Assembly (NCBI RefSeq): GCF_030408675.1
Contig: NZ_CP047200.1
Location: forward strand, 2,170,001-2,234,000
Direction: 5' to 3'
Source of the DNA: Corynebacterium durum
GTDB taxonomy: Bacteria; Actinomycetota; Actinomycetes; Mycobacteriales; Mycobacteriaceae
DNA length: 64,000 bases
Positions 1,935-62,724 of this stretch are shown in pieces; position 1 is the stretch's first letter; the number at the start of each line of letters is the position of its first letter. The notes beneath the pieces are model-generated. The model ran no database searches, was not told the DNA's origin, and saw only the letters and a program-made list of their open reading frames with translations. A program made the position numbers and the translations under genes.

Positions 1935-3409
1935 GCCGGCTCCTTTCCAAACAGGGTGCGAGCTTCACCGGCGGTGACCACGGATCCGGTAATCACCACG
2001 CCGTTGCCGGACACCATCTCGCCTTCTTCAGCCAGTTCCACCGCCAATTCCACCGCAGAAGGCAGAGTATCGGCAACGTGGACGCGCTCCTCGCCGAAGA
2101 TTTCTCGCGCGTGTTCTGCCAGTTCATAGGCGTCCAATGCACGCAGGGAGCGTGTTTGGGTGCACACGATCTCACCAAACACAGGCTCCAGTTCGGTGAG
2201 CACCCCAACGTAGTCTTTGTCGGAGAGCACCCCGACCACGCCGATGAGCCGGTTGAAGGAGAAGTCCCGTTGTAGGGCGCGCCCGAGTGCGCGGGCACCG
2301 TGGGGGTTGTGCGCGGCGTCGATAAACACGGTGGGCGTGGCGCGGACACGTTCGAGCCTTCCTGGGGATTCCACGGAGGCAAATCCCTCACGGACGGTGT
2401 CGATGTCCAGCATCCGGCCGGATCCAGCGCCGAAGAATGCTTCCACAGCGGCCAGGGCGACGGCTGCGTTGTTGGCTTGGTGCTCCCCGGAGAGCGGCAG
2501 GAAAATGTCAGTGTAGTCCCCACCGAGTCCCCGCAGGGTGAGTTGCTGCCCACCGACGGCGATGGTGGATGAGACAACGCCGAATTCTGAGCCTGCGCGG
2601 GCCACGGCGGCGTCGGCACGCACGGCTTGTTCCAGGATCACTGTCATGGCGGCGGGGTCCTGGTCCGCCACGATGGCAACGTTATCCGGAGGTGTCAGCA
2701 GGTCGTCAAGGTCCCAGCGCGGTTTGATAATACCGGCTTTTTCCCTGGCCACTTCCTCCAACGTCGAACCCAGGTAATCGGTGTGGTCCAGTCCGATGGG
2801 GGTGATTACGGCCACGTCGGCGTTGATCACGTTGGTGGCGTCCCACAGCCCGCCCATGCCTACTTCCACCACGGCGACGTCAACGGGGGCGTCGGCAAAC
2901 GCGGCGTAGGACATGGCGGTGAGCACCTCGAATTTGCTGAGTTTCGGTCCGCCTTCCTTTTCCGAGGCCACGTCCGCCATCTCTACGTAGGGTTGGATTT
3001 CGCGCCATGTTCGCACGTAGTCGCGGGGGTGCAGGGGCTGGCCGTCAATGGCAATGCGTTCGGTGGCCAGCTGCAGGTGCGGGCTGGTGGTGCGCCCGGT
3101 ACGACGGTGGAAGGCACGCATCAGGGCTTCGATCATGCGGACTGTGGAGGTTTTGCCGTTGGTGCCTGCCACATGGATGGCCGGAAATGACCGTTCTGGG
3201 TTGCCCAGCAGGTCCATCAGCAGTTCCATGCGCGTCAGCGTCGGGTCGATTTTTACCTCTGACCAGCGCTGATCCAGCTCGGCTTCCACCTCGGCGAGCG
3301 CCCGCAGATCCTCAGGCGTGATCTCGCGGGTTTCCGGCTCTTCCACCGGCGCGTTCACGTCAATGGGTAGGGTGAGGCCGCTGTCGTCTACCGATACCTC
3401 ATCGCTCAT
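1931..3409 (-). CDS. folC: Bifunctional folylpolyglutamate synthase / dihydrofolate synthase
   Basis: Adds glutamate to dihydropteroate and to tetrahydrofolates using ATP, a late step of folate biosynthesis and the step that retains folates in the cell. In 492 residues the P-loop AGTNGKTST lies at 81-89, followed by Mur-ligase-type features (TTSPHL, VVEVGMGGLWDATN, DAAHNPHGARAL). The first ~45 residues form an acidic extension found in other corynebacterial FolC. The start lies 4 bases after the valS stop and the stop overlaps the next gene, so it sits mid-operon. Confidence 0.95.
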   Translation of the reverse strand: MSDEVSVDDSGLTLPIDVNAPVEEPETREITPEDLRALAEVEAELDQRWSEVKIDPTLTRMELLMDLLGNPERSFPAIHVAGTNGKTSTVRMIEALMRAFHRRTGRTTSPHLQLATERIAIDGQPLHPRDYVRTWREIQPYVEMADVASEKEGGPKLSKFEVLTAMSYAAFADAPVDVAVVEVGMGGLWDATNVINADVAVITPIGLDHTDYLGSTLEEVAREKAGIIKPRWDLDDLLTPPDNVAIVADQDPAAMTVILEQAVRADAAVARAGSEFGVVSSTIAVGGQQLTLRGLGGDYTDIFLPLSGEHQANNAAVALAAVEAFFGAGSGRMLDIDTVREGFASVESPGRLERVRATPTVFIDAAHNPHGARALGRALQRDFSFNRLIGVVGVLSDKDYVGVLTELEPVFGEIVCTQTRSLRALDAYELAEHAREIFGEERVHVADTLPSAVELAVELAEEGEMVSGNGVVITGSVVTAGEARTLFGKEPA

Positions 3410-3413
3410 CAGC

Positions 3414-6113
3414 TCACCCCAGTTCCTTCAAACGGGCCGTCACGCGGGCAATTTCCTCCTCAGCCACCTGGTGACGCTGGCGAATCTTCTCCACCACCGC
3501 AGCCGGTGCCTTATCCAGGAAGGCGGCGTTACCCAACTTCTTTTCCGTTCCTTCCAGTTCCTTCGTCGCCGCGGCTAGCTCCTTGTCCAAGCGTTTCCGC
3601 TCGGCAGCCACGTCGACGGTGCCGGAGGTGTCCAGTTCCACCAGCAGGGTCGCCTGGCTCAGGCGCACTTCAATGCTTGCCGACGCCTCGAATCCCTCAG
3701 CTGGCTCCTCTACCCGCGCCAATGCCTGAACAATGCTTTCCTGTTGCTCAAGGTCCGCGTCGGCGAAGCGCAGGCGGGCGGGAACCTTCTGCGATGGTTT
3801 CACGCCCTGGTCGGAGCGGAAACGGCGGAGTTCCGTGACCAATTTTTCCACGTCAGCCATGCGGCGGGCTGCCGTGTCGTCGGCAGGGGCGTCGGTGATG
3901 GCGGTAGGCCACGACGCGATGACCAGGGATTCTCCACCCGTGAGCACGGTCCACAGGGTTTCCGTCACAAACGGCATGACCGGGTGCAGCAGTCGCAGCA
4001 CCGTGTCCAGCGTGTTCCCCAACACCAGCTGGGTGTTTTCGCCACGTCGCTGCTCCTCTGGGCTGGCAGACCCGCCGTCCCGCGGGATCTGCACCTTGGC
4101 GATTTCCACGTACCAGTCGCACAGTTCGCCCCAGGTGAACTGGTACAGCAGCTCGTATGCCTTGGCGAACTGGTAGCGGTCCAACAAGTCATCGATCTCT
4201 GCGCGAACGGCTTCCAGGCGATCCAGAATCCAGCGGTCCGCGTCAGTGAGTTCGGCACGGTCCGGTAACTCCCCTACTGTCGCGCCGTTCATCAGGGCGA
4301 ATCGGGTGGCGTTGAACAGCTTGGTGGCAAAGTTGCGGGAGCTTTGGGCGGAGTCGTCGCCCACGGGCAGGTCCACGCCTGGGTTCGCGCCGCGTGCCAG
4401 GGTGAATCGCAGGGCGTCCGCGCCGTACTGCTCTACCCAGTCCATGGGGTCGATGCCGTTGCCCAGGGATTTGCTCATCTTGCGGCCTTTTTCGTCGCGG
4501 ACCAGGCCATGGAGGTAAAGGTCCGTGAAAGGAACCTTGCCCAGGGGCGAGCCGGGCAGCGATGCCGCAAAAGTGCCGAACATCATCATGCGGGCGACCC
4601 AGAAGAACAGGATGTCGTAGCCGGTGACCAGCACGGATGTAGGGTAAAACTTCGACAATTCGGGGGTTGCGTCCGGCCAACCCATGGTGGAGAACGGCCA
4701 CAACGCCGAGGAGAACCAGGTGTCCAGAACGTCCGGGTCCTGCACATAGCCTTCGGGAGCCTGTTCATCGGGGCCGACACACACGACATCGCCGTCGGGT
4801 CCGTACCAGATCGGGATGCGGTGCCCCCACCAGAGCTGGCGGGAGATGGTCCAGTCGTGCATGTCGTCCACCCACTCGAAATAGCGTGGGTTCTGGCTCG
4901 CGGGGTGGATGGTGGTGTCGCCGTTGCGCACGGCGTCGCCAGCCATGCGGGCGAGTTCATCAACCTTGACAAACCACTGCTCAGAGAGCCGGGGTTCTAC
5001 GGGCTCGCCGGAGCGTTCCGAATGCCCCACAGAGTGCAGATAGGGGCGTTTTTCCGCGACGATGCGGCCCTGCTCGGCCAGTGCCTCGCGGATTTTCACC
5101 CGGGCTTCAAAGCGATCCATGCCATCGAACTGGGTGCCGGTGTCGGCGATGCGCCCAGTGGTGTCCAGGATGGTGGGCATGTCCAGGTTGTGGCGCAGAC
5201 CCAGCGCGTAGTCGTTGGGGTCGTGCGCGGGGGTGATCTTCACGGCACCGGTACCGAACTCGGGATCCACGTAGTCGTCGGCAACAATAATAAGCTCCCG
5301 ACCAGGGATGAAGGGGTGCGGCAAGCTGGTGCCCACCAGGTCTGTGTAGCGGGGGTCGTCGGGGTGAACGGCCACCGCGACGTCGCCAAGCATGGTTTCT
5401 ACGCGGGTTGTGGCCACCACAACGTGGGGTTCGTTGTCATCTAGGGAGCCGTAGCGGATGGACACCAGTTCGCCTTCGACGTCCTTGTACACCACCTCAA
5501 TGTCGGAGACGGCGGTTTCCAGCACCGGCGACCAGTTGACCAGGCGGTGGGCGCGGTAGATCATGCCTCGGTCAAAAAGTTCCTTAAAGATGGTTTGCAC
5601 CGCGCGCGACAACCCCTCATCCAGGGTAAAACGCTCGCGGGACCAGTCGACGGAATCCCCGATGGCGCGCATCTGCTCGCCGATTTTGCCCCCGTATTCG
5701 TTCTTCCACTCCCAGACCTTGGCGACGAACTCATCGCGATCGTAATCGTAGCGATCCTTTCCCTCCGTCTTCTTCAGCATCGCCTCGACTTTGGTCTGCG
5801 TCGCGATGCCCGCGTGATCCATCCCCGGAAGCCACAGCACCTCAAACCCCTGCATGCGCTTCCTCCTCGCCAACGCATCCATGAGCGTATGGTCCAGCGC
5901 ATGCCCCATATGAAGCTGCCCCGTCACGTTCGGCGGGGGCAGCACAATCGAAAAGGGCGGCTTCTCCGACGTCACGTCGGCGGTGAAGTAGCCACGATCA
6001 AGCCACTGCTGGTATAACGCAGCCTCAACGGCCTTCGGATCCCAGCTTTTCGGCAGGGCGTCGGCACGGCTTGTGGAATGGTTCAGGGTGTTTTTGTCAG
6101 TCACCCTTGCCAT
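3414..6113 (-). CDS. valS: Valyl-tRNA synthetase
   Basis: Charges tRNA-Val. The 899-residue class I synthetase shows the HIGH-type signature HMGH at 68-71 within [18 protein letters not shown], the KMSKS loop in [16 protein letters not shown], the WSP editing-domain entrance region, and a C-terminal coiled coil (last ~60 residues, rich in Lys/Glu/Ala) typical of ValRS and absent from IleRS. Length is normal. It is first in a tight minus-strand group with folC. The upstream gap to mdh is only 81 bases and shows no T-box-like structure that I can recognise. Confidence 0.97.
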
Positions 6114-47536: not shown

Positions 47537-48371
47537 CTTTTTGTTTGTGTGGGTGGGGTGCTGGGGTGGATTTTTGAGTGCCGGAGTTCCAGATGAGTAC
47601 AACGACGGAGCCGCTCTAGAATCCGAAATGAGATAGGTCAACTGCGAGGGAAACCGTCAAAAGATACAACATCTCAGCAGATGTTCCACCAGAAGCCTTT
47701 CTAACTATTCTTCGAGAATTGAATATATTCACGCTTGATGTCATAAGTAAATCTGCCATAGCTGCCACTAGTTATGAAAGACAAAAGGCGACGATCACAA
47801 CAAGAAAGAAGCATTTTAGAAGCACGCGAGCATGAAGGTAATAAAAACTGCAATGCAAAACCTTTGACACACTAGAAGAAAATTAGAAATACACGTTAAC
47901 TTGCAATCCTAGTGCATTTGACAATTCTGGGCAGGAATATAATTTTCGCCAACACCAAACCACAACGGGCTACGCAGGTGAAACGATTAACAGCCACATA
48001 TTGAGTCACAGTTGCAGCCATCTACGATTTCATCGCCACTAAGGATACGCACCAACTATGCAACTTGAGCATCATTTGCTACACAAATCACATCTACTGT
48101 AGACGCCTTATTATCCGAATAAGACATTTTCAAAATGCAATGTAGACCATATTGACGGTGTCACAACTAGCGCTAGACCAATGCCCAAGATAATTGCTTT
48201 TACGCCTATAGGGCAAACCTTTCCAATTCCTTGCAGTATCGCATGTGCAGAAAAAACAGGGCTGACTTTTAATTTTCTTGATACTGCGACAACTTTATTT
48301 TATTACAAATGAAAGTCTGCTACATAGGCAGCGAAAAAACCAAAACTTAGGATAAATTCGCCCTTCCCCTG
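47537..48371. other. AT-rich gene-free stretch between tRNA-Arg and CRISPR array
   Basis: About 830 bases with much lower G+C than the flanking genes. No intact gene. A start-less open frame at 47632-47835 (plus strand, containing VPPEAFLTILRELNIFTLDV) has protein-like composition and may be a gene remnant. I see no copy of the tRNA 3' end that would mark an attachment site. Confidence 0.5.
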
Positions 48372-49566
48372 CCCTCAATGAAAGTCTTCCGCATAAGCGG
48401 AAGAGACGCCCATGGAAGACGCCATCAACCACATCACCAGCGGGCCTCAATGAAAGTCTTCCGCATAAGCGGAAGAGACGCTTTCGCCACGGTCTTTATC
48501 AGGATCAGACGCCACCGCCTCAATGAAAGTCTTCCGCATAAGCGGAAGAGACAACAGTCCCAGCTGGGGTTACCGACGCCGCCATACTGGCCTCAATGAA
48601 AGTCTTCCGCATAAGCGGAAGAGACACGAAACCTGTCTTGGCGACAACAGCGCCCTTCTTGCCTCAATGAAAGTCTTCCGCATAAGCGGAAGAGACGTGG
48701 GAGCCGCAGGCCCCGGAGAACGATAGAACGCTGCCTCAATGAAAGTCTTCCGCATAAGCGGAAGAGACTCAGCCGCACATCCTGCCGCTCTTCCAATGCG
48801 TCGATGCCTCAATGAAAGTCTTCCGCATAAGCGGAAGAGACGTCTGCGTGCTCGGAGAAGATGGATTCCACAGCGCCGCCTCAATGAAAGTCTTCCGCAT
48901 AAGCGGAAGAGACTGCGTATCTGCTTCATTATTGAGCGGAATATGCGGGCCTCAATGAAAGTCTTCCGCATAAGCGGAAGAGACCGAAAGCCTCATTATC
49001 AAGGCAGGGAGCCTATATCTGCCTCAATGAAAGTCTTCCGCATAAGCGGAAGAGACGCTGCTCCGCGCTAGGTACCAGACACGTGATAGTGCGCCTCAAT
49101 GAAAGTCTTCCGCATAAGCGGAAGAGACTAAGTTTGAGGCCGAGAACCGGCGTATCGAAAAGGAGCCTCAATGAAAGTCTTCCGCATAAGCGGAAGAGAC
49201 CGAAGGTTGGCAAGGATCGTAACGGTCGTGTCCGCTGGGCCTCAATGAAAGTCTTCCGCATAAGCGGAAGAGACTTTCCATGCTAGAATGGCATCGCGGC
49301 AAGTCTCCCAGCCTCAATGAAAGTCTTCCGCATAAGCGGAAGAGACCCAAAGACAATGGTATCTCCGTTGGCGGGTACTCTGTGGCCTCAATGAAAGTCT
49401 TCCGCATAAGCGGAAGAGACCCCTCCCGAAGTCATCAGCAAGCTGCCAAAGACCTATGCCTCAATGAAAGTCTTCCGCATAAGCGGAAGAGACCGTTCTA
49501 TACCGGAAATGCTCCTACGGCTTATCGTTGGCCTCAATGAAAGTCTTCCGCATAAGCGGAAGAGAC
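48372..49566 (-). CRISPR. CRISPR array, 17 repeats and 16 spacers
   Basis: A 36-base repeat recurs at 48372, 48444, 48517, 48590, 48661, 48733, 48806, 48878, 48949, 49021, 49093, 49165, 49239, 49311, 49385, 49458 and 49531. Spacers are 35-38 bases and all differ. Each repeat starts GCCTCAATG and ends GAAGAGAC on the plus strand and contains an 8-bp hairpin TCTTCCGC-ATAA-GCGGAAGA. The copies are identical except the leftmost, whose first base is C. Read on the minus strand the repeat ends ATTGAGGC, like the 5' handle of type I crRNAs, so transcription is probably leftward, in line with the cas operon. Confidence 0.99.
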
Positions 49567-49753: not shown

Positions 49754-50056
49754 CTACATGATAATCACATCATTATCTGTTATTTCCCTACACAATCCAA
49801 CATAGCTAAACTTCTGTTGCCCCAGGTCGGCTAGCCTTCCCAAGTCGCAGAATAGTATCGAGTCTTCGTCCAGTTGAGCAATCTTGCCAATCTCATCCTT
49901 CAACCGTAGAAGCTTCGAAGGAATGATATCAACCACAAAGACGCTGTATTGTATGCGATCTCCATAGGTTTCCAGCAACTTCGCTATCTTTCCACGCCGT
50001 CTATCGTTAGGAACATCATACGCAATTAGTGTGCGCCGTGTGTCGTCACGCCTCAT
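49754..50056 (-). CDS. cas2: CRISPR-associated endoribonuclease Cas2
   Basis: 100 residues, normal length. Ferredoxin-like fold with TLIAYDVPNDRRRGKIAKLLETYGDRIQYSVFVVDI; the Asp in YDVPNDRRR is the usual metal residue. With Cas1 it forms the spacer integration complex. Its start overlaps the cas4-cas1 stop by 4 bases. Last gene of the operon, next to the leader. Confidence 0.96.
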   Translation of the reverse strand: MRRDDTRRTLIAYDVPNDRRRGKIAKLLETYGDRIQYSVFVVDIIPSKLLRLKDEIGKIAQLDEDSILFCDLGRLADLGQQKFSYVGLCREITDNDVIIM

Positions 50057-51657
50057 CTTACTTTGACACCTACATAGCTGGGGTGGCTACCATTTAGTAC
50101 TCCAAGAATCATTCGCGCTTGGATCTCAATTGCACGTCTCCATGTCACTGAATAACCGAAGAAAGGATGCTTGAATTCCGCGTTGATCCGCCGCTCAAAT
50201 GCTTTGATAATTGCAGTACGACCTGTGGGTGACAACCTCAGACTATCACCAGCCGATAAAAAGCTTCCCCCACTAATTTGCCTCCGATTAACTAGTGTCA
50301 AAACAACAGAATCTGCTACAACTGCGCGAAATTCCTCCATAAGATCAAGAGCAAGCGCTGGTTTATTCCGATTGCTGCTATGCAAGAATCCCGCATGAGG
50401 ATCCAGTCCACAAGTGAGGATTGCACGGATACACTCCGACGAGAGTAAGCCATACGCGTAGTTTAACAAGATATTTAGCGGATCCGTTGCTCCACGTCCG
50501 GTCCTACCCTGCCACCACCAACCTAGCGACCGCAAAGTGGCTGTGCTCAGCATCGTTTCAAAGCCACCAAAATATAAGCTTGCCGCATCACCCTCAATCC
50601 CGAATAACTCGGGCAACGATGCAGCTTTGAGTGCATTTTGCTGCAACTTTCGCAATTCTTTGACCGCATGATCAGCATCGCCATTTCGCCGAAGCAGCGT
50701 TGCTTGATTTGCTATCTTACTTGAGATCATCTCTGTAGCAATCGGCACGCTTCCACGCGCCGACAAGACATGCTGTTGGACCCTCGCCAAACCATTTGGT
50801 CCTGTTCCGGGTTGCGACCAGCCATAGACACGACCACTACTAGAACACCAAATGACAGTGTAATCACGCCACATAAGATCCCGCAGCAGTGCGGAGGAAA
50901 GGTCAATATTGCCATGGATGACAACACTATGAATCCTCTCCAAGGGAACATCACCAATCTGCTCACCTTTGGATTGGACTATCATCCTTCCCTTTCGCAC
51001 TGATGCGCGGGCACCCTGCACAGTCAAATGCACGACCTGGCTATCGGGTTTCGACGGAACGATCTTCTGGGAAGTCACACGTCCTAGATGCTCATCTGGA
51101 AGACAGACACTAACATGTGAACACCAACTACACTTAGGTGAGTCTTCGAGTGGACCAGGAGCTATGGTGCCTTCAATAATATTACGAGTTCTATCAACAA
51201 AGCTTCTCGCCAAGTTGAAATCTTTTTCAGTGAGTTCAACAGGCATCTTCTTGTTATGATCAGTAAAATAAACTGCATACTCAGTTATATTTTCACCTGA
51301 TTCCTTAAGGCATATACCTTGAAGAGCCAGTTGAATACGGTTAGCTTCAGTGACTTGTGGAGTTTTCCTGACCGGAGTGGATTTATATTCCACCACCCTC
51401 ATCGAGTCGTTGTCAACAGGTTCAACGACATCACATCTGCCAATAATACCTAACTCATCGGACTTGACCTGAACTGAACGACGTTGTTGACTTCGCGAGG
51501 TCGCCGGATCATCTACTCCGTGATGTGACGAATGTCCATGCTGCATCTGTGACGTGTCGGTCACTTCACCATTTGCTTCTAGCCAAGCTCGACGCTCGCA
51601 ATACACTGTTTGCGCTACCAAAGAAATGGGAAGCACAGCATCTTCGCGGTAACTCAT
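50053..51657 (-). CDS. cas4-cas1: Cas4-Cas1 fusion protein
   Basis: 534 residues. Residues ~1-195 are Cas4: iron-sulfur cysteines in VYCERRAWLE and CSWCSHVSVC, and the nuclease motif VVEYKS. Residues ~205-534 are Cas1: GRMIVQSKGEQIGDVPLERIHSVVIHGN, Glu in GIEGDAASLYF, NYAYGLLSSECIRAILTCGLDPHAGFLH and ALDLMEEFR supply the Glu/His/Asp metal ligands. Cas4 trims prespacers by PAM, Cas1 integrates them. The fusion is the hallmark of type I-G (old I-U). Start overlaps the upstream gene by 4 bases. Confidence 0.95.
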   Translation of the reverse strand: MSYREDAVLPISLVAQTVYCERRAWLEANGEVTDTSQMQHGHSSHHGVDDPATSRSQQRRSVQVKSDELGIIGRCDVVEPVDNDSMRVVEYKSTPVRKTPQVTEANRIQLALQGICLKESGENITEYAVYFTDHNKKMPVELTEKDFNLARSFVDRTRNIIEGTIAPGPLEDSPKCSWCSHVSVCLPDEHLGRVTSQKIVPSKPDSQVVHLTVQGARASVRKGRMIVQSKGEQIGDVPLERIHSVVIHGNIDLSSALLRDLMWRDYTVIWCSSSGRVYGWSQPGTGPNGLARVQQHVLSARGSVPIATEMISSKIANQATLLRRNGDADHAVKELRKLQQNALKAASLPELFGIEGDAASLYFGGFETMLSTATLRSLGWWWQGRTGRGATDPLNILLNYAYGLLSSECIRAILTCGLDPHAGFLHSSNRNKPALALDLMEEFRAVVADSVVLTLVNRRQISGGSFLSAGDSLRLSPTGRTAIIKAFERRINAEFKHPFFGYSVTWRRAIEIQARMILGVLNGSHPSYVGVKVR

Positions 51658-52721
51658 AATGGCACCGCCGTACCATACTGAACTTGACGTTCAGGTGCCG
51701 ATGAGCTTCCCGCGAGCAAAATCGGAAACCTCGCTACAGCCTTCACACCACGATCTTTAAGCCATACAGCCGAACGAGCAGAGCCAAGCACACTTGCCGT
51801 GTTATTTTCCACAATGCCAGCCTCAACACCACACACTTGCTCCACTGCCTCTGCAAATGCCTGGCTGCGTAATATTGCGCGTAACCTGGCTGGTGTTATC
51901 TTCTGAGCAAAGATTGGAAGAACCATATTATCTGGGTGAAGTACGTCGGAAGGCCAGGCCCCCGGAGTGATACTCAGCTGATCAATCTTCCTCACTACAG
52001 GAAAACATGCAATCCCTAAAAGAGCAGCGAATGTTAACGCAACATCGGCAGGACCTGGTGGGGTAAAACCAGTTGATGTACGTGAATCAATTGCATTTTT
52101 TCCTATAGTATCGCGAAGAGTTACGCCGGTAATGCCAGAGGAAATATCACTTATACTCCATTGAGAAAGTTCAATACACAGCGGTCGAAGCCGATACTGA
52201 ACAAATTCCTCTCCTTTGTTCCTCGTTTTCATCTCCCACCTGGACGCACCATGATCTGGCCGGTTTTCCTTACGTAAAAAACGCCAGTACGCAGCTTCAC
52301 CAAGACCAAATATCCAGCGAAGCGAAAGCAAATCACCGTCCAAAGTCAATTGGTTTAGCGCATGAAACCTGGCCTTTTGATGATTATGCCAATCGTATGG
52401 ATTAGCTTGAACGTCAATACCACGTATGCGCGGCGAAAATGGAGAAAATATTGCTTTCTTTTTTCCGCTTCCATACTCATTATTGACAGTAACCCAACTA
52501 TCAACTGAACTTAATTGAACCGAATACTGCAAGATATATTCAGCCACGGCATCCAAGCCCACACCTTCAATATCAAGCTGCGCTTTAGGTATGACTTCAT
52601 CACTCCATCCGAGAGTTACAGCGCCTGGATGGTGTGTCTCAGCTAGCATTGCTAAACCATACAGTGCGAAATGAGTGAGCGCAGAACGGTAGTCGCCCGC
52701 GAGAGTAATTGTAGACATCAT
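51654..52721 (-). CDS. csb3: Type I-G effector subunit, Csb3/GSU0052-like
   Basis: 355 residues with no motif I can name, but position (between cas3 and cas4-cas1), size and the segment GFTPPGPADVALTFAALLGIACFPV fit the GSU0052/Csb3 family of type I-G systems, which replaces the large Cas8 subunit. The ~700-residue Csx17 that other I-G loci carry is absent here. It is expected to join Csb1 and Csb2 in the interference complex, perhaps for PAM recognition; that is inference. Overlaps both neighbours by 4 bases. Confidence 0.7.
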   Translation of the reverse strand: MMSTITLAGDYRSALTHFALYGLAMLAETHHPGAVTLGWSDEVIPKAQLDIEGVGLDAVAEYILQYSVQLSSVDSWVTVNNEYGSGKKKAIFSPFSPRIRGIDVQANPYDWHNHQKARFHALNQLTLDGDLLSLRWIFGLGEAAYWRFLRKENRPDHGASRWEMKTRNKGEEFVQYRLRPLCIELSQWSISDISSGITGVTLRDTIGKNAIDSRTSTGFTPPGPADVALTFAALLGIACFPVVRKIDQLSITPGAWPSDVLHPDNMVLPIFAQKITPARLRAILRSQAFAEAVEQVCGVEAGIVENNTASVLGSARSAVWLKDRGVKAVARFPILLAGSSSAPERQVQYGTAVPL

Positions 52722-55477
52722 TTTCCTTCCGCCGAAATTTGAACGTCAGCCGCCCGTTCAAGCGCCTCAAGATATGCCGTCATATATGGACCAAATTCGA
52801 CGTCGGTTCGTTCGATTAACTCTTCCCATCGACCGGTGAAAAATAGCTCATGCGCTTGTTCCTGCAAAGTATCGGAAATGGGATCCTGACTATTTTGCGG
52901 CAACAGAATGCGATCTGTATGCGCAAAAGAATTTCTCCCATGTCCGTGGCTGCATCCGATTATTCGCAAAGCAAGATCCGAACACTCTAGTTTCCCCTGC
53001 GCTCTTTCATTGGCGACTAAAGCAACCGACATTTGTTCATGCCGCCACCCTTGCGGCAGGCCACTTCGTTGCCTAGCAATTTTCGTTTCCTGACGAGTTC
53101 GAACTTCACTCTTTGCTAGACTCTTTTCAGATTTTAGTCCTCCAAGCATGCTCTGGAATCGGCTATCAGATTTACCGTCATCATGATGTCGAGCAGCAAA
53201 CACCACATCCTCAGCAAAATCTTCTTTCAAACCAACAACACAAGCGATCTTTTCGGCACGTGCAGCTACATCACGCTGATGATCTTCGAGAAAGATTTTC
53301 CCCTGCGTATAAGTCCACTCTTGCCGAATATCACTATCTTCTTGAGGCTCTTCTTTACGCGTAACGGCGTACCATGAAACAACCTCGCCAAATCTTAGAT
53401 CATCTTGAATCGAGCTTGATAGGACAATATCATCATCTACATTGCCAAATTCGCGCCAGATACTGGTTGCCTCGTCTGGCGTTAATCCGCAAAATTCCCT
53501 GAAAATTTCAGCTTCAGATTTTGACATACCAGCATCGAAAGTTAGGATCTTAGTATATTTATCTTTTACAGCCTCTGGTGGCTCTTTGTCGCCAGGATTT
53601 CCTGTCACCGCTACTTTTTCGGTGGTAAAAGGAATCCCTCGATCGATGATGATCAAGTCGCCAGGACGGGACCTATGTCGTGGTGTGCAGATTTCGATCT
53701 CACCATCGCGAAGAAAGAATGCTCGTCGCAGAATATCAGGTTCGCTTCGTTCCAGCCTAATCCTCTGTTTATCGTCAACAACAAGTTGAGATAGAATGTG
53801 GTGTAACACATCCAAACTTGCCGGAAAAACTTCATTATTTTTTGGAGGAAACGCCTTCAAAAGTTCGAGAGCGACGAAATCATCCCCTGGAAGCTGTTCT
53901 CGCACAACAATTCCGCCAATTGCCATCTGCTCCTCCAGAGAATCATGCAGCCATAAATCAAGATCTGGTTCTGCATATGCGTCTTCAGAGGTTCGTGAAA
54001 ATTCGAGAAGATCCGTCAGCTCGGGACGTTGATAGAGCAACCGAGACGGCAATGTTTCTGGTGGAACACAGGCTAACATTGCTGCTGGATTTGCGTTACC
54101 TTGCTGCGATAATGCATCCAACCAATTATAAGATTCGCGCAGATCATCGCCTTTGTATGGCGGCATTAAATCTTTAACTTTTGCCAAATCCACTGGCTCA
54201 AGAACAACAATTTTTGAATCTGTTCTTTTCCCCAAACGATTAACTCTGCCAAAACGCTGCGCAAGCGATGAAGCGGGTGCCAGCTCTGTAACCAGGGAGT
54301 AAAAATCAATATCAATTCCCACTTCCAGCGTCTGAGTAGCTACCACTACGTCAATTTCACTATCGCCAACACAGGTGAAGAGCAATGGATGTTTTTCACG
54401 CAATTGTTCTAGATCATATGTTCGCATTCGGCCAACGATGAGCTCAACGTTAAGTTTTCTTTTTTTTAGCTCATTCGCAATTTTGACAGCAGTATCAACA
54501 TGATTAACAATGCATCCGATTGTACGACTTTGCTCGACTCCGGAACCTGTCTGATCATTTCGCAAATTATGTATTTCAGCTACTGCATGCGCGACTACCT
54601 CACTATTACCCGGTGCACCGTTCCACTTTTCTACTGATACGCGACGAAGTTCTTTGACGGAGTTAACCCTTCGTAGAAGTTCCGCATCATCAGCGCCGCC
54701 AAGGTTAGAAACATCAACTCCAACCTCAGTTTGTCCCTTTTTAAGTTCAGACGGAGTCGCTGTCGTTTCTACGACCTGGAGCCGTGGCACGCCTATATCA
54801 GCGCCAAATTCCTGCAACTTAGCCACTCGCCGGGCAGTCACCAGTAGCTGTTGGTTAAGGTGAGCCTCATCAAGGACAAAAACGGAGTCCATTGCAATCA
54901 AGGCTGTTTCACGAGGACGGGCTTGTTTCGAACTGCCGTAACCTTTAAACAGTAGGCGCGACCCCCACATATCTGGTGTCGCAGCAATTACTGCGCAGAC
55001 TGAGAGTTCATTGACTGGCAAGGAGCGATTGCTGAGCTCACCACGTATGTGACCCACCAAAAAGGGCTCAGTTACGTCATGCACGTGAAATGATGAAAGC
55101 AGCTTTGCAACACGGTATATGATGTCACTCTCATCATTTGCGGCATCGTTATTAAGCACATCTACCATGGTGCGTTGAATATTCATCGCTCTATCTGCCT
55201 GACTGTCTACCAAAGCGCGGCGACCAACAACCACGCATAGCCGACGTGGTACCCTTGGCCCATTCCCGCTGGCAAATAAGGCGTTAACAAAAAGATGGAC
55301 ATCCACTACTGATGATTTTCCAGCACCTGTTGGAGCAACAATCCTCTCCGGCCAGGTACCTGTGGTTACTATTTGATCAACCAAGTCTTGTTGCCAGCTA
55401 AAAGGAGCATGCCCTCCATTGAGTGCGGCAAAGAACGCGGAGAAATCACTGCGTTTTACTGTTTGTTTATTTATCAT
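52718..55477 (-). CDS. cas3: CRISPR-associated helicase-nuclease Cas3 (HD at C-terminus)
   Basis: 919 residues. Helicase motifs come first: Walker A APTGAGKSSVVD (about 47-58), FVLDEAHLNQQL (DEAH), TTATPSELK, and later VATQTLEVGIDIDF and LAQRFGRVNRLGK. The HD nuclease domain is at the C-terminus (FAARHHDDGKSDSRFQ, GWRHEQMS, GCSHGHGR), the arrangement found in type I-G, opposite to most Cas3. Unwinds and degrades target DNA after recognition. Its start overlaps csb2 by 11 bases. Confidence 0.95.
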   Translation of the reverse strand: MINKQTVKRSDFSAFFAALNGGHAPFSWQQDLVDQIVTTGTWPERIVAPTGAGKSSVVDVHLFVNALFASGNGPRVPRRLCVVVGRRALVDSQADRAMNIQRTMVDVLNNDAANDESDIIYRVAKLLSSFHVHDVTEPFLVGHIRGELSNRSLPVNELSVCAVIAATPDMWGSRLLFKGYGSSKQARPRETALIAMDSVFVLDEAHLNQQLLVTARRVAKLQEFGADIGVPRLQVVETTATPSELKKGQTEVGVDVSNLGGADDAELLRRVNSVKELRRVSVEKWNGAPGNSEVVAHAVAEIHNLRNDQTGSGVEQSRTIGCIVNHVDTAVKIANELKKRKLNVELIVGRMRTYDLEQLREKHPLLFTCVGDSEIDVVVATQTLEVGIDIDFYSLVTELAPASSLAQRFGRVNRLGKRTDSKIVVLEPVDLAKVKDLMPPYKGDDLRESYNWLDALSQQGNANPAAMLACVPPETLPSRLLYQRPELTDLLEFSRTSEDAYAEPDLDLWLHDSLEEQMAIGGIVVREQLPGDDFVALELLKAFPPKNNEVFPASLDVLHHILSQLVVDDKQRIRLERSEPDILRRAFFLRDGEIEICTPRHRSRPGDLIIIDRGIPFTTEKVAVTGNPGDKEPPEAVKDKYTKILTFDAGMSKSEAEIFREFCGLTPDEATSIWREFGNVDDDIVLSSSIQDDLRFGEVVSWYAVTRKEEPQEDSDIRQEWTYTQGKIFLEDHQRDVAARAEKIACVVGLKEDFAEDVVFAARHHDDGKSDSRFQSMLGGLKSEKSLAKSEVRTRQETKIARQRSGLPQGWRHEQMSVALVANERAQGKLECSDLALRIIGCSHGHGRNSFAHTDRILLPQNSQDPISDTLQEQAHELFFTGRWEELIERTDVEFGPYMTAYLEALERAADVQISAEGK

Positions 55478-57032
55478 TGCTGTGCTTTTCCTTCTGAATC
55501 ATACGCTCAAAGTCGTCCTTCAAGACATCATGAGGAACTAATAGCCCACCACCGAGATGACGTGACTGACCGATAGCTACAAGTGTTTTATCTGTAGCTA
55601 GTGTTCCGAGAGACAACAGACCACGCCATGGTTGTGTGACAACACTAGCGTGTGTTCTATGCGCATACTTTCTAGGATTTGCGTTTACCGTTCGTGCTTT
55701 AAACACCATCGCATCTTGCGTCTTCACTTGATCACGCAGTTCCAGGTAACGTTGCTCGCCCTTTTTCTCAGAGTTGAATCTATCGCGCCATACGTATGCG
55801 AGGGAAAGCAACCCAGAATCCGCGAGGGTCCAGCGTCTAGTACCATCTTTAGGCTTCACTGGACGAGTCTCTGGAACTATTGCTGTAAGAGGTTTCCACA
55901 GCCGAACGCAACCCTGCTGCGGCTTCGGCCAAAACGCATCTGCTTGAACGGAGATCCCACTGAAGTAGACATGTCGTCGACCAAAATCCCTACTGTACAG
56001 TTGTTTTACGGCAGCCAGTCCCTTAGCTAACTGGCTCAGGTCTTCCGTGTTCGCTGCAGCCGGAATCATTATTGCGATGGCTGCGCCTTTGAGACCGAGG
56101 TGTTGCGTGTACTGCCCAGGAAGGTACTGGAATGCCAATCTGTTTGCTGGTATTTTAGCTACTGCCTTGTCGTATTTTCCGGTGATGAAGCTGGATGCCC
56201 CAAATCCAATAGCCGAAATAATCGCACGATGAAGAGCGACGCAAATAGCTACGTACTGGCGAGGCGGAAGATCTTCTCCTGCAACCTCAAGCAAGACAAT
56301 TTGGGACCATGGCGCATCACACACTGTAGGTTCCTGACGCGAATATTTGACGTTACCCAAACACTCGTGTGTCACTGGCGTGTTTAGTGGTTCCTCATTT
56401 TTTTTAGGTCTATCCGCTGCCTTAGTAGGTATTTTACTTGGATTGTTACTCCGGTACGTCTTGATCAATGCATCAGTTCGCCCATCAATGGGAACTCGAA
56501 GCATCATCCCACCGCTAACTAGAGGACTCCCCTGAGCATCAAGATGAAGATTTGGGTTTACCACTCCGCCTTCAAGGATAGCCACGCTGACTGATTCGCC
56601 CAGGTGAGGCACATCATCACACAACTGCTCCAATGTTTCTGCAACATCATCAGGTACGTTATCCCAATGCCAGCCAACATGACTAGCCAAAGCGATGCCG
56701 TCTGACAGCGGGCGTTGCTCCGTTTTCCTTCCTCCTGAAGACTGAGCGACCTCGCGGTGCATAAAGCGTTGTCGTCCGGTAAAGACTGGTAGTGAGGTTG
56801 GTTTTTCGATTCCATCCGGCGGATTCTTTTCCAACCATTTCAAGGCAACAAGTGCCGATTCACTTGGTTCAAGCCCATGTTTGCCCTGAATAGCGTGAGT
56901 TCCTTGTGTTGCCGAGTTAAGCAAAGCAGCATGCAGTCGTGCTGGATCTGGAAACTCATCACTGCGTCGATCGGATTTGTGTCCTACGTAAACCCCCAGT
57001 GGGAACCTCGCAATGATGTTGAGGCTCCGCAT
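55467..57032 (-). CDS. csb2: Csb2 (Cas5-Cas6 type subunit)
   Basis: 521 residues of the GSU0054/Csb2 family: the N-terminal MRSLNIIARFPLGVYVGHKSDRRSDEFPDPARLHAAL is characteristic. Family members combine a Cas5-like part that caps the crRNA 5' end and a Cas6-like part that cuts the repeat; no separate cas6 exists in this operon, so processing should be done here. His residues suitable for cleavage occur near the C-terminus (HLGGGLLVPHDV). Begins 2 bases after csb1. Confidence 0.9.
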   Translation of the reverse strand: MRSLNIIARFPLGVYVGHKSDRRSDEFPDPARLHAALLNSATQGTHAIQGKHGLEPSESALVALKWLEKNPPDGIEKPTSLPVFTGRQRFMHREVAQSSGGRKTEQRPLSDGIALASHVGWHWDNVPDDVAETLEQLCDDVPHLGESVSVAILEGGVVNPNLHLDAQGSPLVSGGMMLRVPIDGRTDALIKTYRSNNPSKIPTKAADRPKKNEEPLNTPVTHECLGNVKYSRQEPTVCDAPWSQIVLLEVAGEDLPPRQYVAICVALHRAIISAIGFGASSFITGKYDKAVAKIPANRLAFQYLPGQYTQHLGLKGAAIAIMIPAAANTEDLSQLAKGLAAVKQLYSRDFGRRHVYFSGISVQADAFWPKPQQGCVRLWKPLTAIVPETRPVKPKDGTRRWTLADSGLLSLAYVWRDRFNSEKKGEQRYLELRDQVKTQDAMVFKARTVNANPRKYAHRTHASVVTQPWRGLLSLGTLATDKTLVAIGQSRHLGGGLLVPHDVLKDDFERMIQKEKHSNDK

Positions 57033-57034
57033 GA

Positions 57035-58246
57035 CTAGTCCTCGCTTTCAGATTCATCGGAAGCACCCTGCAGAATCACTTGATTGCCATCCACATGCAA
57101 TATCTGACCGTTCCAGTCAGCAACGCCAGTAGAGCGTGCATGGTTGATTGCCTGTTCCAGCAGCTGGTCAGCAAGTTCTACAGTGATTGGATCAAGGATG
57201 CGTTTATTTCCATAGCGCTCGTCCAGCGTGACAACAGGTGCTCCTGCCTCAACAAGATCGCAGTTAGCGCGGAGATACAGCTCGCGTTCAGCACGCGCAA
57301 TTGCCACCAAACCAAACGCCGCAAGAAGGGCTCTACCAGCAACATTTGCTTCTTCATTGCCACCAAAGCGCAGCTGCCGTAGCGATGCAAAACTCAACAC
57401 CCACGAACGAATAATTTTACCGCAGGCTACCCCTCCAAGAGCATCAAGCTTTGGTGGAATACCGCCAAGTCCGAGCGGCGATGCTGATAGTTTTTTATCC
57501 TTCTTGGCTTTCTTTATCTCACCACGAAGCTTGTCAATCAGCTTATCACTGAGTTCAGCCTCTTGGGCATCAATCAATTTCTCCATCTCTTTGGGGTCAA
57601 GCTGCACACTCATAGCAACCGTATCCACACGAGCTCCACCTCGACGTGATTGCTGATCCTGGCCGCTACTATCCTGATCAGCAAGAACACCAATAATCTC
57701 ACCAACAAGCGCACTACGAAGTCGTACTTGATTCTTCTTACGAGTAGAATCCCATCCACCAAAAACAGCCGCAGCAGGAGCAGTATTGAGGATTGCACTC
57801 ATGTCGGCAGGAGTGGCATTGCGAACTGCTCGGTATGCTTCGTTTGCAGTGGTCGGCTCACCATCAATAGTCCCCGCACGGACATGCCCATCAGCAAAAC
57901 GGTGAGGCAACTCCATGTCACTAAATTCTTGACCATCACTGTAGGTGACCAGAATCCGGGGAATTTTCCCCAACAAAGGATGCTCAGCACGAATATCCTG
58001 CATGATGGCACCTTCCGCACGATTAAGTTGCGACTGCTTGCTGTCCAACAAGACAGCTCGAGCTGCCAAGCCATCAATAAAACGAGTCTCAAAAGCAAAC
58101 ACGGAGCTACGCCCATCTACAAACTTCGCTGGTGCGACTGATGCATGCGCTCCAGCTGCAGGTTCAAGTTCCGTCACTGACACCAGGGTTGAAGCACCTC
58201 CGCTGGTGCATGCCTTGAGTAAATCTTCAAAGATCATGATGGTCAT
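57035..58246 (-). CDS. csb1: Csb1 (Cas7-type backbone subunit)
   Basis: 403 residues from ATG 58246, with AAAGGAAG 5 bases upstream; an in-frame ATG at 58282 is rejected. GSU0053/Csb1 family: SVTELEPAAGAHASVAPAKF, SVFAFETRFIDGLAARAVLLDSKQSQLNRAEGA, FGGWDSTRKKNQVRLRSALVGEI. Forms the helical backbone along the crRNA. First gene of the operon. Its first ~55 codons and upstream DNA occur again, decayed, 1 kb further right. Confidence 0.93.
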   Translation of the reverse strand: MTIMIFEDLLKACTSGGASTLVSVTELEPAAGAHASVAPAKFVDGRSSVFAFETRFIDGLAARAVLLDSKQSQLNRAEGAIMQDIRAEHPLLGKIPRILVTYSDGQEFSDMELPHRFADGHVRAGTIDGEPTTANEAYRAVRNATPADMSAILNTAPAAAVFGGWDSTRKKNQVRLRSALVGEIIGVLADQDSSGQDQQSRRGGARVDTVAMSVQLDPKEMEKLIDAQEAELSDKLIDKLRGEIKKAKKDKKLSASPLGLGGIPPKLDALGGVACGKIIRSWVLSFASLRQLRFGGNEEANVAGRALLAAFGLVAIARAERELYLRANCDLVEAGAPVVTLDERYGNKRILDPITVELADQLLEQAINHARSTGVADWNGQILHVDGNQVILQGASDESESED

Positions 58247-58293
58247 GAGACTTCCTTTCAAATATTGGAACTTCAGTTCCAAGTCGAAATTTT

Positions 58294-58655
58294 GATGTCG
58301 CTGCCACTCACTAGAGTGATGATCATCGCGATGACCTCCTCAAATGGTGGCAACAAAACTGATAATACGCCTCAGAAAAGTCAAGTCAATTTTGGCTCAT
58401 ACAAAGATAACTAACCATTACCCCCGATGTATCAACCAGAGCTTTCACCAACACCAGCTCGAGCGGTGCAGCATCGTAGTGAGCCAAAGCTCGTACAAAT
58501 AGGACCAACCAGCCCCAATGAAAGGCTGCGGCACCTTCAGCCACCCTACCCGAAACATCTCAATAACCCCGAGAAGCCAGCCTTCAGATTGATACTTTCG
58601 AAATGCACACTTACCCCCGAATGCCTGATTGAACACATTTATTCCGCCTTTCACT
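58294..58655. promoter_or_regulatory. cas operon upstream region (proximal copy of a duplication)
   Basis: Non-coding region before csb1. It aligns with 59299-59655 at an offset of about 1000 bases. Best conserved is 58468-58530, with GCTCGTACAAATAGGAC and CAGCCCCAATGAAAGG. A motif GGCTCRTACAAA occurs at about 58391 and, as AGCTCGTACAAATA, at about 58489. It also holds the palindrome GATGATCATC near 58318. Probably contains the cas promoter; no -10/-35 call is safe. Confidence 0.6.
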
Positions 58656-58861
58656 CAGACACTGAGGAAAAAGTCTCCTACGGGGTAGAGAGGTGCACTT
58701 CAGCTTCAATACCTTCATCGCGGCGCGTTTTTGCACTTGCGTTTTCCACCCCATCATTATTGATAAATCACGCCGCCATTGTTACTTCCAAATCAGGAAG
58801 AGTAGGGAAGTTCACCACAGCGAATGCGGGTACATCCTTCCCTGAGTAGTTTTTAACGCAG

Positions 58862-59260
58862 TCACCTTGAGAGATCAGGGTGGGCGCATAAACTACTATC
58901 TACGCCAGAGCAGGGGCAAGTATCCGGTGCTACACCAAGGATGACAACAGCGTCTCGTTGTGGAGCAAACACCTGCACTGGAGCGGGGGCAAGTACCCGC
59001 ACCGGAGCAGGCACAATAGACGAATCTGGAGCCTGGGAAAACACTACACAAAGGAATACAACCATGGCCATAGTCGAAGCCAAAACTGAGCGGGGAATCT
59101 TAAACACAGACACAGAGCTACGTTCAACTACAAACTTAGCTGACGCAACTAATCCTTGTGCTTCCGCTGCAGGTTCGAGTTCCGTCGTTGAAAAGCGCCT
59201 CGAAACGGCACGGCTAGTAGAAGCTTTGGGTCGATTGTTAAATCGTTTCATTAAACTCAC
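58862..59260 (-). pseudogene. Decayed partial csb1 copy fused to a secretion-signal-like frame
   Basis: A 132-codon frame. Residues ~7-53 align without gaps to Csb1 residues 6-52 (shared: TELEPAA, AKFV, RSSV), and the DNA is clearly related. After residue ~53 the frame changes to IPRSVLASTMAMVVFLCVVFSQA, which looks like a signal peptide, then an Ala/Pro/Val repeat. A protein-like frame continues in another phase to about 58779. The result is probably not functional, though expression of the chimera cannot be excluded. Confidence 0.65.
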
Positions 59261-59298
59261 TTCCAGTTCTTAGAAAGTACGTATTATTTATGGACGGT

Positions 59299-59655
59299 TA
59301 TGTCACCACCACCCACTAGAGTGATGATCATCGTGATGATCTTCTCAAATGATGGTAACAAAACCTATACTACACTTCAAAAATCTTGATTCAAGCTTGG
59401 CTCGTACAAATACTACAAACCAGTACCCCAATTTCTGCAACCGACGCTCCCACCAGGACAGACCAGGGCGGTGCAGCATCGTTTTGAGCCAAGGCTCGTA
59501 CAAATAGGACTAACCAGCCCCAATGAAAGGCCGCACCGCCCTCCGACACTCTACTCCGATCACCTCAATATCCCATAAGAGGTTATTTGTAGATCTGTGC
59601 GCCTGACATTCATGCTTACCCCCGATTGTCTGGTTAAACACACTTATCCCACCTC
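59299..59655. repeat. Distal copy of the cas upstream region
   Basis: Direct repeat of 58294-58655, diverged but with a nearly unchanged core at 59470-59530 (GCGGTGCAGCATCG, GCTCGTACAAATAGGAC, CAGCCCCAATGAAAGG). Together with the csb1-like frame it shows a segmental duplication of about 0.57 kb. Confidence 0.8.
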
Positions 59656-59665
59656 CCCATCACGC

Positions 59666-59692
59666 GAAAAACCCCGCCGTAGCGGGGAAAAA
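59666..59692 (-). terminator. Terminator downstream of the excalibur genes
   Basis: CCCCGC-CGTA-GCGGGG (59672-59687) flanked by A-runs on the plus strand, so on the minus strand the stem is followed by TTTTT. It begins just beyond the excalibur gene stop at 59697. Confidence 0.9.
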
Positions 59693-59696
59693 CACC

Positions 59697-60116
59697 TCAC
59701 TCCCCTCGCTCACACGCAATCCCATCTTTGTCGTGGTCTAGGGCGGGTGAGTAGCCAGGCTGGCCTTGGTGGATGGGCGTCGTTAAGCCTGCGCGGCGTG
59801 CGGCGTCACAGGTCGGGAAGCCATCGCCAGTAACCCCTAGTACGGGCAAGCCATCAGGGACAGACGCCCCAGTTATAGAAATGATACTGCGGTGCAGTGC
59901 CCAGGCGGTGATGATGCCGATCATTCCACCTGTAGCGATGTGGGTAACGGCGGAATCAACCCGGTCATTGCTACTACCACCAGTGCCTCCAGCGGCGGAC
60001 CCACCAGCAACCTTCCCGTCAGCGGCAGCCTTTACCTCCACCCCGGAAGTCTCGGCAGCCGCAGCCGTGCCACCACTGCCGAGCACCAGCGTCATAGACA
60101 ACGCCACCGCCGTCAC
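59697..60116 (-). CDS. Secreted excalibur-domain protein
   Basis: 139 residues from GTG 60116. Signal-like N-terminus (TAVALSMTLVLGSGGTAAAA), Gly/Ser/Ala-rich middle, a hydrophobic segment (about 62-80), and a C-terminal excalibur calcium-binding domain: FPTCDAARRAGLTTPIHQGQPGYSPALDHDKDGIACE, with the DxDxDGxxCE loop. The domain occurs in extracellular nucleases and envelope proteins. Lies 30 bases after a paralogue on the same strand; both share the same ending and likely arose by tandem duplication. Confidence 0.82.
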   Translation of the reverse strand: MTAVALSMTLVLGSGGTAAAAETSGVEVKAAADGKVAGGSAAGGTGGSSNDRVDSAVTHIATGGMIGIITAWALHRSIISITGASVPDGLPVLGVTGDGFPTCDAARRAGLTTPIHQGQPGYSPALDHDKDGIACERGE

Positions 60117-60146
60117 TACACTACCTAGGCCACCCAGCCGCAGAAC

Positions 60147-60869
60147 TTACCGCTCGCAGGCCACGCCGTCGTTGTCGCGATCCAGGTGCGGCGCGTAGGC
60201 GGGTTCACCACGGTGAATGGGGGTGCGCACTCCGGCCGCGCGGGCTGCTGCGCAGTTCCTGAAGCTACCACCCTGCGGGGCAGGTGCCGGTGCAGGCGCA
60301 GGGGCTGCCTGAACTGGAGCAGGGGCCGGGGCTGGCGCAGGTGCGGGAGCCGGGGCCGGGGGAGCTGGCGGATTGGGGATGATTCCCGGCAGCGGATTAG
60401 CGATCAGCCGCTGCTGCACCGCCCAGGTGAGTCCCGCAGAGATGAGGCCGCCAATGCCCACGATCCCGGCGATAATGCCCAGAAATTTCAGGGTTTTATT
60501 ATCTTTGTTCTCAGCAATGGCACTGCTCCCCGCCTTGCCGCGTTCGCTACTCCCCTTGACCTTGTCGCTGCTGCCGCTGACTTTTGCACTGCTTCCACCA
60601 GCTTTTTCACCAGGCTTCCCGGCAGCACCCGCGCCAGAAGCTGCATCCACACCAGAAGCGGCGCCCTTGCCCGCCTCAACCTGATTTCCACTGGCCTCAT
60701 TTCCAGCAGCGGCATTACCAGCCTCACCGTTTGCCCCAGCAGCGGGCGCAACCACCCCGGTCTCCTGCTTTCCCTGAGCTGGTTTTTCTTCAGCTCCAGC
60801 ATTCACCATTCCAGCGAGCGGCAGGACCACTGCCAGGCTCAGACTTACAAGTTTTGTGCGTGTACGCAT
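60147..60869 (-). CDS. Secreted excalibur-domain protein with Pro/Ala repeats
   Basis: 240 residues from ATG 60869 (AAGGAG 7 bases upstream; ATG 60887 is rejected). Signal peptide ending near AGMVNAGAEE, then an Ala/Gly/Ser-rich low-complexity stretch, a hydrophobic helix (about 128-150, FLGIIAGIVGIGGLISAGLTWAV), a proline-alanine spacer of (PAPA)n type that could cross the cell wall, and a C-terminal excalibur domain FRNCAAARAAGVRTPIHRGEPAYAPHLDRDNDGVACE. Function unknown; calcium binding is a family property. Confidence 0.85.
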   Translation of the reverse strand: MRTRTKLVSLSLAVVLPLAGMVNAGAEEKPAQGKQETGVVAPAAGANGEAGNAAAGNEASGNQVEAGKGAASGVDAASGAGAAGKPGEKAGGSSAKVSGSSDKVKGSSERGKAGSSAIAENKDNKTLKFLGIIAGIVGIGGLISAGLTWAVQQRLIANPLPGIIPNPPAPPAPAPAPAPAPAPAPVQAAPAPAPAPAPQGGSFRNCAAARAAGVRTPIHRGEPAYAPHLDRDNDGVACER

Positions 60870-61157
60870 CGCAGACTCCTTTTTCATAGGCTTATATTTG
60901 GAAATTCTTATATTTTCTTCCTGCTTTTCTCAAATAACGCCCTTCGGAGCTACCCCAGAACCACCCCCAACACCGCTCGCGCCCCGCCTGCACCCATACC
61001 CGATCCATACCCGTGCCCTAAAGCTACCCCGCACCTCACGCCGCCATTTTTCGGCCAAATCACCTCACACCGGTACGATGGACACCAAACCGAACTATCT
61101 CCCATATTTTTAGCTAGCTGCCCCAGAACTATTTTCGATTAAAGGATTACTGCAACT

Positions 61158-62651: not shown

Positions 62652-62724
62652 GTGGCTGTAGTTCAGCTGGTAGAGCACCAGGTTGTGATCCTGGGTGTCG
62701 CGGGTTCGAGCCCCGTCAGCCACC
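62652..62724 (+). tRNA. tRNA-His (anticodon GTG)
   Basis: Acceptor GTGGCTG pairs with CAGCCAC. An extra G at 62651 fits the histidine-specific G-1 facing discriminator C. Anticodon loop carries GTG in GGTTGTGATCC; T arm CGGGTTCGAGCCCCG. Confidence 0.96.

Follow-up and report, generated by a model that had tools for sequence, protein, structure and literature searches.

A duplicated segment at the start of the cas operon of Corynebacterium durum very probably has a cas autorepression module at its core, in which a CreR-like guide would direct the type I-G Cascade to the cas promoter. We analysed a window of 64,000 nucleotides from the genome of this organism (2.79 Mb, one contig); the positions in Table 1 refer to it. 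The type I-G markers csb1, cas3, the cas4-cas1 fusion and cas2 are all present by Pfam, and the relatives of csb1 carry the names type I-G Csb1/Cas7g. For 55467-57032 and 51654-52721 the Pfam search gave no match; their size and place fit csb2 (Cas5-Cas6) and csx17/cas8g, and we take them, from their position in the operon, to be the csb2-position and the csx17-position gene, respectively.

Local alignment within the window showed that 58090-58649 (copy A) is repeated at about 59095-59654 (copy B), with a score of 434 compared to a maximum of 42 in 200 dinucleotide shuffles. The segmental duplication claimed in the preliminary description of this DNA is thereby confirmed, its coordinates and chimeric open reading frame were correct, and the similarity outside the short TELEPAA stretch is far above chance level. 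In a repeat search, the non-coding part came out as matches of 275 nt (76%) and 50 nt (78%), both at an offset of 1005; the csb1 part is offset by 1011. In the distal copy the csb1 frame runs on (TELEPAA..AKFV..RSSV) and is followed by a hydrophobic and then an Ala/Pro/Val sequence. The non-coding core had been described as more similar than the coding part, which is true, yet the similarity comes in blocks: copies A and B are identical at 12/12 positions of the handle, 22/24 of spacer positions 1-24, 19/24 of the target and 42/49 of a 5'UTR block, compared to 21/39 for the guide-target linker, 70/109 for the flank preceding the guide and 88/126 for the codons of csb1. We read this block pattern as probable selection on guide and target, part of which local gene conversion could mimic. 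The earlier suggestion of selection on a regulatory element is supported, the element being a crRNA-like guide gene, a PAM-flanked target and a promoter in both copies; the more recent exchange (gene conversion) proposed beside it leaves unexplained that the same parts are conserved between species. The Csb1 fragment may also act as a regulator or decoy, as was suggested earlier, for which the analysis gave neither support nor contrary evidence.

To judge from its sequence, the conserved core of the duplication is an ectopic mini-CRISPR, consisting of a degenerate repeat that ends in the 5' handle of the array and a spacer that follows it. On the operon strand, each copy has the handle TTTCATTGGGGC, with 11/12 bases identical to the last 12 of the array repeat, and within the window the 9-mer TTTCATTGR is confined, on this strand, to the array and the two guide copies. 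The 24 bases after the handle return imperfectly 94 nt further on (start to start), directly after TAA in copy A and TAC in copy B, and a promoter-like -35 box begins 28 nt after target position 1. If spacer positions 6, 12, 18 and 24 are disregarded as flipped (see below), target A matches both spacer A and spacer B at 17/20 positions, and target B matches each of them at 18/20. With at least 17/20 positions matched in every combination, either guide could serve either promoter. The stem of guide A is bulged and, at -14.4 kcal/mol, close to the cross-species mean (-14.3), whereas the stem of guide B has 13 uninterrupted pairs (-29.8 kcal/mol). When the whole genome was searched with a degenerate site pattern allowing up to three mismatches, there were four matches, the two guides and the two targets. 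A covariance model, which had both guides in its training set, gave in the whole genome, besides the guides, only matches that fall in the array. An Rfam search of the window ends brought only a tRNA at 62652 to its gathering score; mir-622 and SNORD104 stayed below theirs and were rejected as identities of the core.

Table 1 Features of the cas region and its duplicated upstream segment in the C. durum window
Feature	Position	Strand	Basis and details
CRISPR array	48308..49566	-	17 repeats of 36 nt (16 exact) and a degenerate terminal repeat
Remaining cas operon: csb2-position gene, cas3, csx17-position gene, cas4-cas1, cas2	49754..57032	-	Pfam for Cas3, Cas4/Cas1, Cas2
csb1 (cas7 of type I-G), first gene of the cas operon	57035..58246	-	PF09617, 128.6 bits
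5'UTR hairpin A	58290..58360	-	-29.3 kcal/mol, z -4.76
Putative cas promoter A	58362..58389	-	TTGACT, 16 nt, TATTAT; 10/12, consensus match only
Putative target A	58394..58420	-	putative PAM TAA 58420-58418; matched positions 1-24 at 58417-58394
Putative guide gene A (CreR-like mini-CRISPR)	58461..58536	-	covariance model 52.4 bits
Parts of guide A			arm 58524-58536; handle 58512-58523; spacer from 58511 downward; second arm about 58460-58472
Probable Excalibur-type gene remnant between the copies	58768..58917	-	score 54 against gene 60147-60887
ORF B, 129 aa	58862..59251	-	ORF list; Csb1-derived start, hydrophobic segment, Pro/Cys tail
5'UTR hairpin B	59295..59365	-	-29.1 kcal/mol, z -4.63
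Putative promoter B	59367..59394	-	TTGAAT, 16 nt, TAGTAT; 8/12, consensus match, below promoter-scan threshold
Putative target B	59399..59425	-	putative PAM TAC 59425-59423; matched positions 1-24 at 59422-59399
Putative guide gene B	59466..59541	-	covariance model 69.3 bits, best of those searched
Parts of guide B			arm 59529-59541; handle 59517-59528; spacer from 59516 downward; second arm about 59465-59477

The same arrangement was found in other genomes. Among 242 Corynebacterium genomes, csb1 is present in 11, and handle, spacer and target lie upstream of csb1 in all 11 of them, the source genome included; a DNA search of the 242 genomes for the duplicated region itself gave, besides the source genome, only short matches in three. 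Outside the genus, 7/33 type I-G loci have a guide-target pair (Nesterenkonia, Rothia kristinae, Actinomyces bovis, Phytohabitans, two Prauserella and one further genome), which makes 18 loci in all, and no pair was found in the other 26. Among the 33 loci are L035, whose upstream sequence is just 165 nt long, and several with distant or split matches to Csb1; the duplicate loci L045, L071, L073, L074 and L046 (whose mini-array is the same as that of L040) were entered once, and L047-L053 were entered without identity comparison to the named loci. In five of the 18 loci (L019, L022, L029, L044, L069) the guide is on the strand opposite csb1. The covariance model made one clear untrained find besides further copies of the loci used, a guide in Micromonospora (L028, 9449-9523, minus strand, 51.6 bits), for which no recognisable target was present within 21 kb of locus sequence, so that it counts among the 26 loci with no pair. 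In both Prauserella loci (L032 and L040) the target lies upstream of the guide, near position -460 within the region of about -400 to -475 of csb1, and the controlled gene may be the guide or a divergent gene rather than csb1.

The mismatches between spacers and targets follow a period of six. Over the 18 loci, with the second copies WINB (the window's copy B) and L012b (C. cystitidis) omitted, spacer positions 1 to 24 are matched in 18, 18, 17, 18, 18, 1, 18, 15, 14, 12, 16, 6, 17, 11, 11, 17, 15, 7, 13, 11, 13, 10, 9 and 2 loci, respectively, and positions 25-30 in 1 to 5 loci each. Positions 6, 12, 18 and 24 pooled are matched in 22%, about as often as by chance. A score that disregards these four positions had originally been used to find the pairs, and this choice was then tested by controls: masking phase 6 gave a total of 293, compared to 247-257 for the other phases, and a plain 24-base score recovered the same target in 17/18 loci. 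Position 6, matched in a single locus, is somewhat under the 25% expected if it were free, and a mismatch there may be favoured. In type I-G, Cas7 flips every sixth base (5+1), as described in the available part of PMC9638904, and the mismatched bases 6, 12, 18 and 24 would be those flipped out by Cas7.

The target search made no use of a PAM. Nevertheless, the putative PAM TAC precedes the target in 17/18 loci, after a 1-nt shift of the L039 pair that was set by hand, and TAA in window copy A; without this shift, the best match is TAC-flanked in 16/18 loci, compared to 1.7% of 540 random 24-mers in the same regions. The scores of L018 (14/20), L069 (14/20) and L039 (13/20) are within the range of the random control, where 52/540 reach at least 14, so the case for these three pairs is made by their PAM, position and seed. 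No phage record matched an array spacer of the window or of C. cystitidis (L012), so that the PAM of the source species is a putative one. As far as the accessible text of the sources goes, the PAM is TAT in a Bifidobacterium I-G system (PMC12915315), and TTN is cited as that of another I-G system (PMC9638904). In 4 of 20 guide-target rows (L014, L070, window A, L039), a promoter-like site scoring at least 10/12 lies near the target; its -35 box follows target position 1 at a distance of 28-42 nt, and the fraction of 820 random windows with such a site is 0.00. Most other rows score only 7-8/12, and L016, L019, L032 and L044 have no promoter-like site near the target; of the two promoters in the window, only promoter A passed the promoter scan.

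Within a single array repeat, one half can pair with the other. In most mini-arrays, the half-repeat on the left of the handle instead pairs with one starting at spacer +37 to +39, and this permuted helix ends 0-1 base before the handle. In 16 of the 20 rows, 5 or fewer of 100 plain shuffles equal the ungapped helix; for L018, L020, L027 and window A it is no better than the shuffles. Covariation was analysed in 17 aligned sequences, leaving out L012b, which is identical to L012a, as well as L020 and L027, which have no permuted stem, so that the alignment favours the stem. All 12 of its 12 pairs are changed on both sides, and 91.7% of the cells are paired, compared to 65.4% in shuffles (0/500 as high) and 31-55% when the arms are slid. 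In 18 rows (without L012b and L069), the arms of the same guide pair at 10.0/11 positions on average, and arms from different species at 7.2. When folded as single strands, guides A and B did no better than shuffles (z -0.45 and -0.94), so the stem rests on complementarity and covariation. The covariance model also matches array units, at lower scores, and the permuted form therefore likely stems from array units, in which neighbouring repeats can pair in the same way. According to the part of PMC9638904 at hand, Csb2 cuts 4 nt 3' of the hairpin, which leaves an 8-nt handle; the geometry of stem and handle fits processing to a guide by a Cas6 activity of this kind. By eye, Actinomyces bovis (L027) seems to retain more of the second repeat, with a local hairpin in place of the permuted stem; this may represent an earlier step in the degeneration.

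Sequence and comparison of the loci show guides, targets, PAM, the spacing to a promoter-like site, mismatches at the flipped bases and the covarying stem, and these features are best explained by the following mechanism. A CreR-like crRNA-mimic gene would be transcribed, its RNA cut by Csb2 and the guide loaded into the cell's own type I-G Cascade, which would block transcription by binding a site that is flanked by TAN, is complementary to the guide in part and lies shortly before the -35 box of the cas promoter. The match ends near position 24 of the ~37-nt spacer, and for this reason the site presumably escapes attack by Cas3. Through the duplication there would be two guides and two targets, with every guide matching every target, and promoter A would be the one that feeds the cas operon. 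Because copy B keeps the better guide, it is probably the main guide source for both promoters; that copy B acts in trans is a reading we moderately favour.

The cas-regulating RNA CreR was reportedly described by Liu et al. 2023, and Shmakov et al. 2023 reportedly predicted regulatory mini-arrays of two repeat-like sequences and one spacer with a target in a cas promoter, a layout that the C. durum module shares. In the available parts of PMC12737573 and PMC13131331, CreR is a crRNA-like RNA that guides Cascade to the cas promoter and is displaced when crRNAs or anti-CRISPRs draw Cascade away. It has in common with our module an ectopic repeat-like element adjoining the cas genes, a spacer with partial complementarity to the cas promoter, and repression presumably by Cascade; in C. 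durum, the repeat-like element stands outside the array beside the cas genes, the target before the csb1 promoter and the PAM next to the target. The differences are that the present system is of type I-G, while the available text of PMC13131331 names CreR for types I-B, I-E and V-A, that the repeat halves pair across the spacer, and that guide and target are duplicated, here and separately in C. cystitidis. Judged by these sequence features, the arrangement is that of CreR, in a new type I-G variant. No type I-G CreR was recognised in the titles and abstract starts of the literature searched, a scope that does not establish its absence from print.

Promoter B precedes ORF B, which the ORF list begins at a GTG at 59260 (132 aa). 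Six relatives were recognised among 39 candidates scored from the protein database, one of them a cluster of 38 members. Among them are relatives only 49-66% identical over the alignment, which indicates that copy B is old. Identity to the closest full-length Csb1 proteins is 87-97%, so that ORF B evolves faster than Csb1. The earlier term "decayed chimeric copy" is only partly appropriate: "decayed" applies to the csb1 copy and not to the guide copy, guide B has the better score, and ORF B, although less conserved than Csb1, has six database relatives. The simplest history begins with a tandem duplication that took in guide, promoter, the start of csb1 and a neighbouring gene of Excalibur type; the csb1 stub then came to read into the decayed remains of that neighbour. 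The alignment score of the remnant between the copies compares with a maximum of 39 in 200 plain shuffles; the nearer Excalibur gene, 59697-60116, was rejected as its source (score 25, below a shuffle maximum of 37). The region 59697-60887 holds two secreted-looking Excalibur-domain genes, between the duplication and a short-chain dehydrogenase gene, and a terminator-like hairpin lies near them at 59672-59687. The nearest relative within the genus, L039 (70% Csb1 identity), has a single module, directly beyond which follow the same short-chain dehydrogenase and oligoribonuclease-like genes as in the window (the latter named by eye), with no room for Excalibur genes.

A second reading is that only copy A works and copy B is debris of the tandem duplication that has not decayed or is held similar by gene conversion. 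We consider it rather unlikely. The csb1 stub is indeed broken and fused to a seemingly decayed neighbour, the fast-changing ORF B has its tail in other frames in the relatives P0003 and P0006, and promoter B is the weaker one (8 vs 10/12). Against this, the linker differs far more between the copies than do the guide, target and 5'UTR blocks, and it is guide B whose stem is uninterrupted and whose model score is higher; the divergence of the ORF B relatives also speaks for an old copy.

Alternatively, copy B might be an addiction or alarm unit similar to CreTA/CrePA, in which promoter B would be kept off by guide and Cascade, and loss of Cascade would free a harmful RNA or membrane protein. 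As far as described in the accessible parts of PMC8501985 and PMC9458426, CreTA/CrePA likewise combine a crRNA-like guide derived from degenerate repeats, a partial promoter match and Cascade-mediated repression, and a guide target in the promoter of a second gene is also present here, as target B and promoter B precede ORF B. In all seven aligned proteins (ORF B and its relatives), several N-terminal residues are conserved, as is a hydrophobic segment with FSQ at its end. In C. cystitidis (L012), the module was duplicated separately (300 nt at 97%, 2375-2674 and 3247-3546, 872 nt apart), and its distal copy likewise carries guide, target and promoter before a small ORF, the 49-aa CCYS_00220 with a hydrophobic end. 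On the other hand, the target gene of CreTA/CrePA is a toxin, according to the same parts of these sources, whereas the cas promoter is the main target in C. durum, and no toxicity is known for the product of promoter B. ORF B had no Pfam match at E up to 0.001, with neither a toxin family nor the KilA-N domain, which the available part of a review gives as typical of CreP. Its hydrophobic segment varies in length and its tail is in another frame or cut in P0003 and P0006, a variability that speaks against a precise toxin, and CCYS_00220 has no relative in the protein database except its own entry. An addiction or alarm unit is therefore improbable. About equally doubtful is a combination of both functions, one guide system with two ends: promoter A would restock Cascade, and promoter B, freed by Cascade loss or an anti-CRISPR, would make a Csb1-fragment membrane alarm or toxin. 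In this reading the guide would be a split-hairpin crRNA, with the Csb2-bound hairpin made from two half-repeats flanking the spacer.

The 5'UTR block at 58296-58344 is palindromic. Of the 25 pairs of hairpin A, 19 are the same in hairpin B, 4 are changed on one side, 1 on both sides and 1 is broken. Both copies have a possible leader ORF in the 5'UTR, read by eye in copy A as 17 codons (58326-58273); it begins MIITLV and is preceded by the SD-like GAGGAGG in copy A and GAGAAG in copy B. The 5'UTR of C. cystitidis has an equally strong, unrelated-looking hairpin, and 12 other loci tested are without one. The palindromic block, which is conserved, and the strong hairpins in both copies might suggest that no guide RNA is involved and that the core serves as an ordinary operator for a protein or as an RNA leader. 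This reading is highly implausible and was rejected, since it cannot account for the handle, seed match, PAM and period-six mismatches in 18 loci, and a comparably strong hairpin (z below -4) is found in only 2/14 loci.

Autorepression by a CreR-like guide thus remains our preferred reading, and it would extend natural guide-based cas autorepression to the type I-G systems of Actinomycetota. The evolved self-targets would offer a sequence-only readout of the binding rule of Cascade, with its 5+1 base flipping and PAM, and the guide RNA would be one whose repeat hairpin is apparently topologically permuted, yet held by compensatory changes. With its two targets, the duplicated module of C. durum may be a built-in experiment in which one guide controls two genes, the second of them encoding ORF B, a Csb1-fragment membrane protein.
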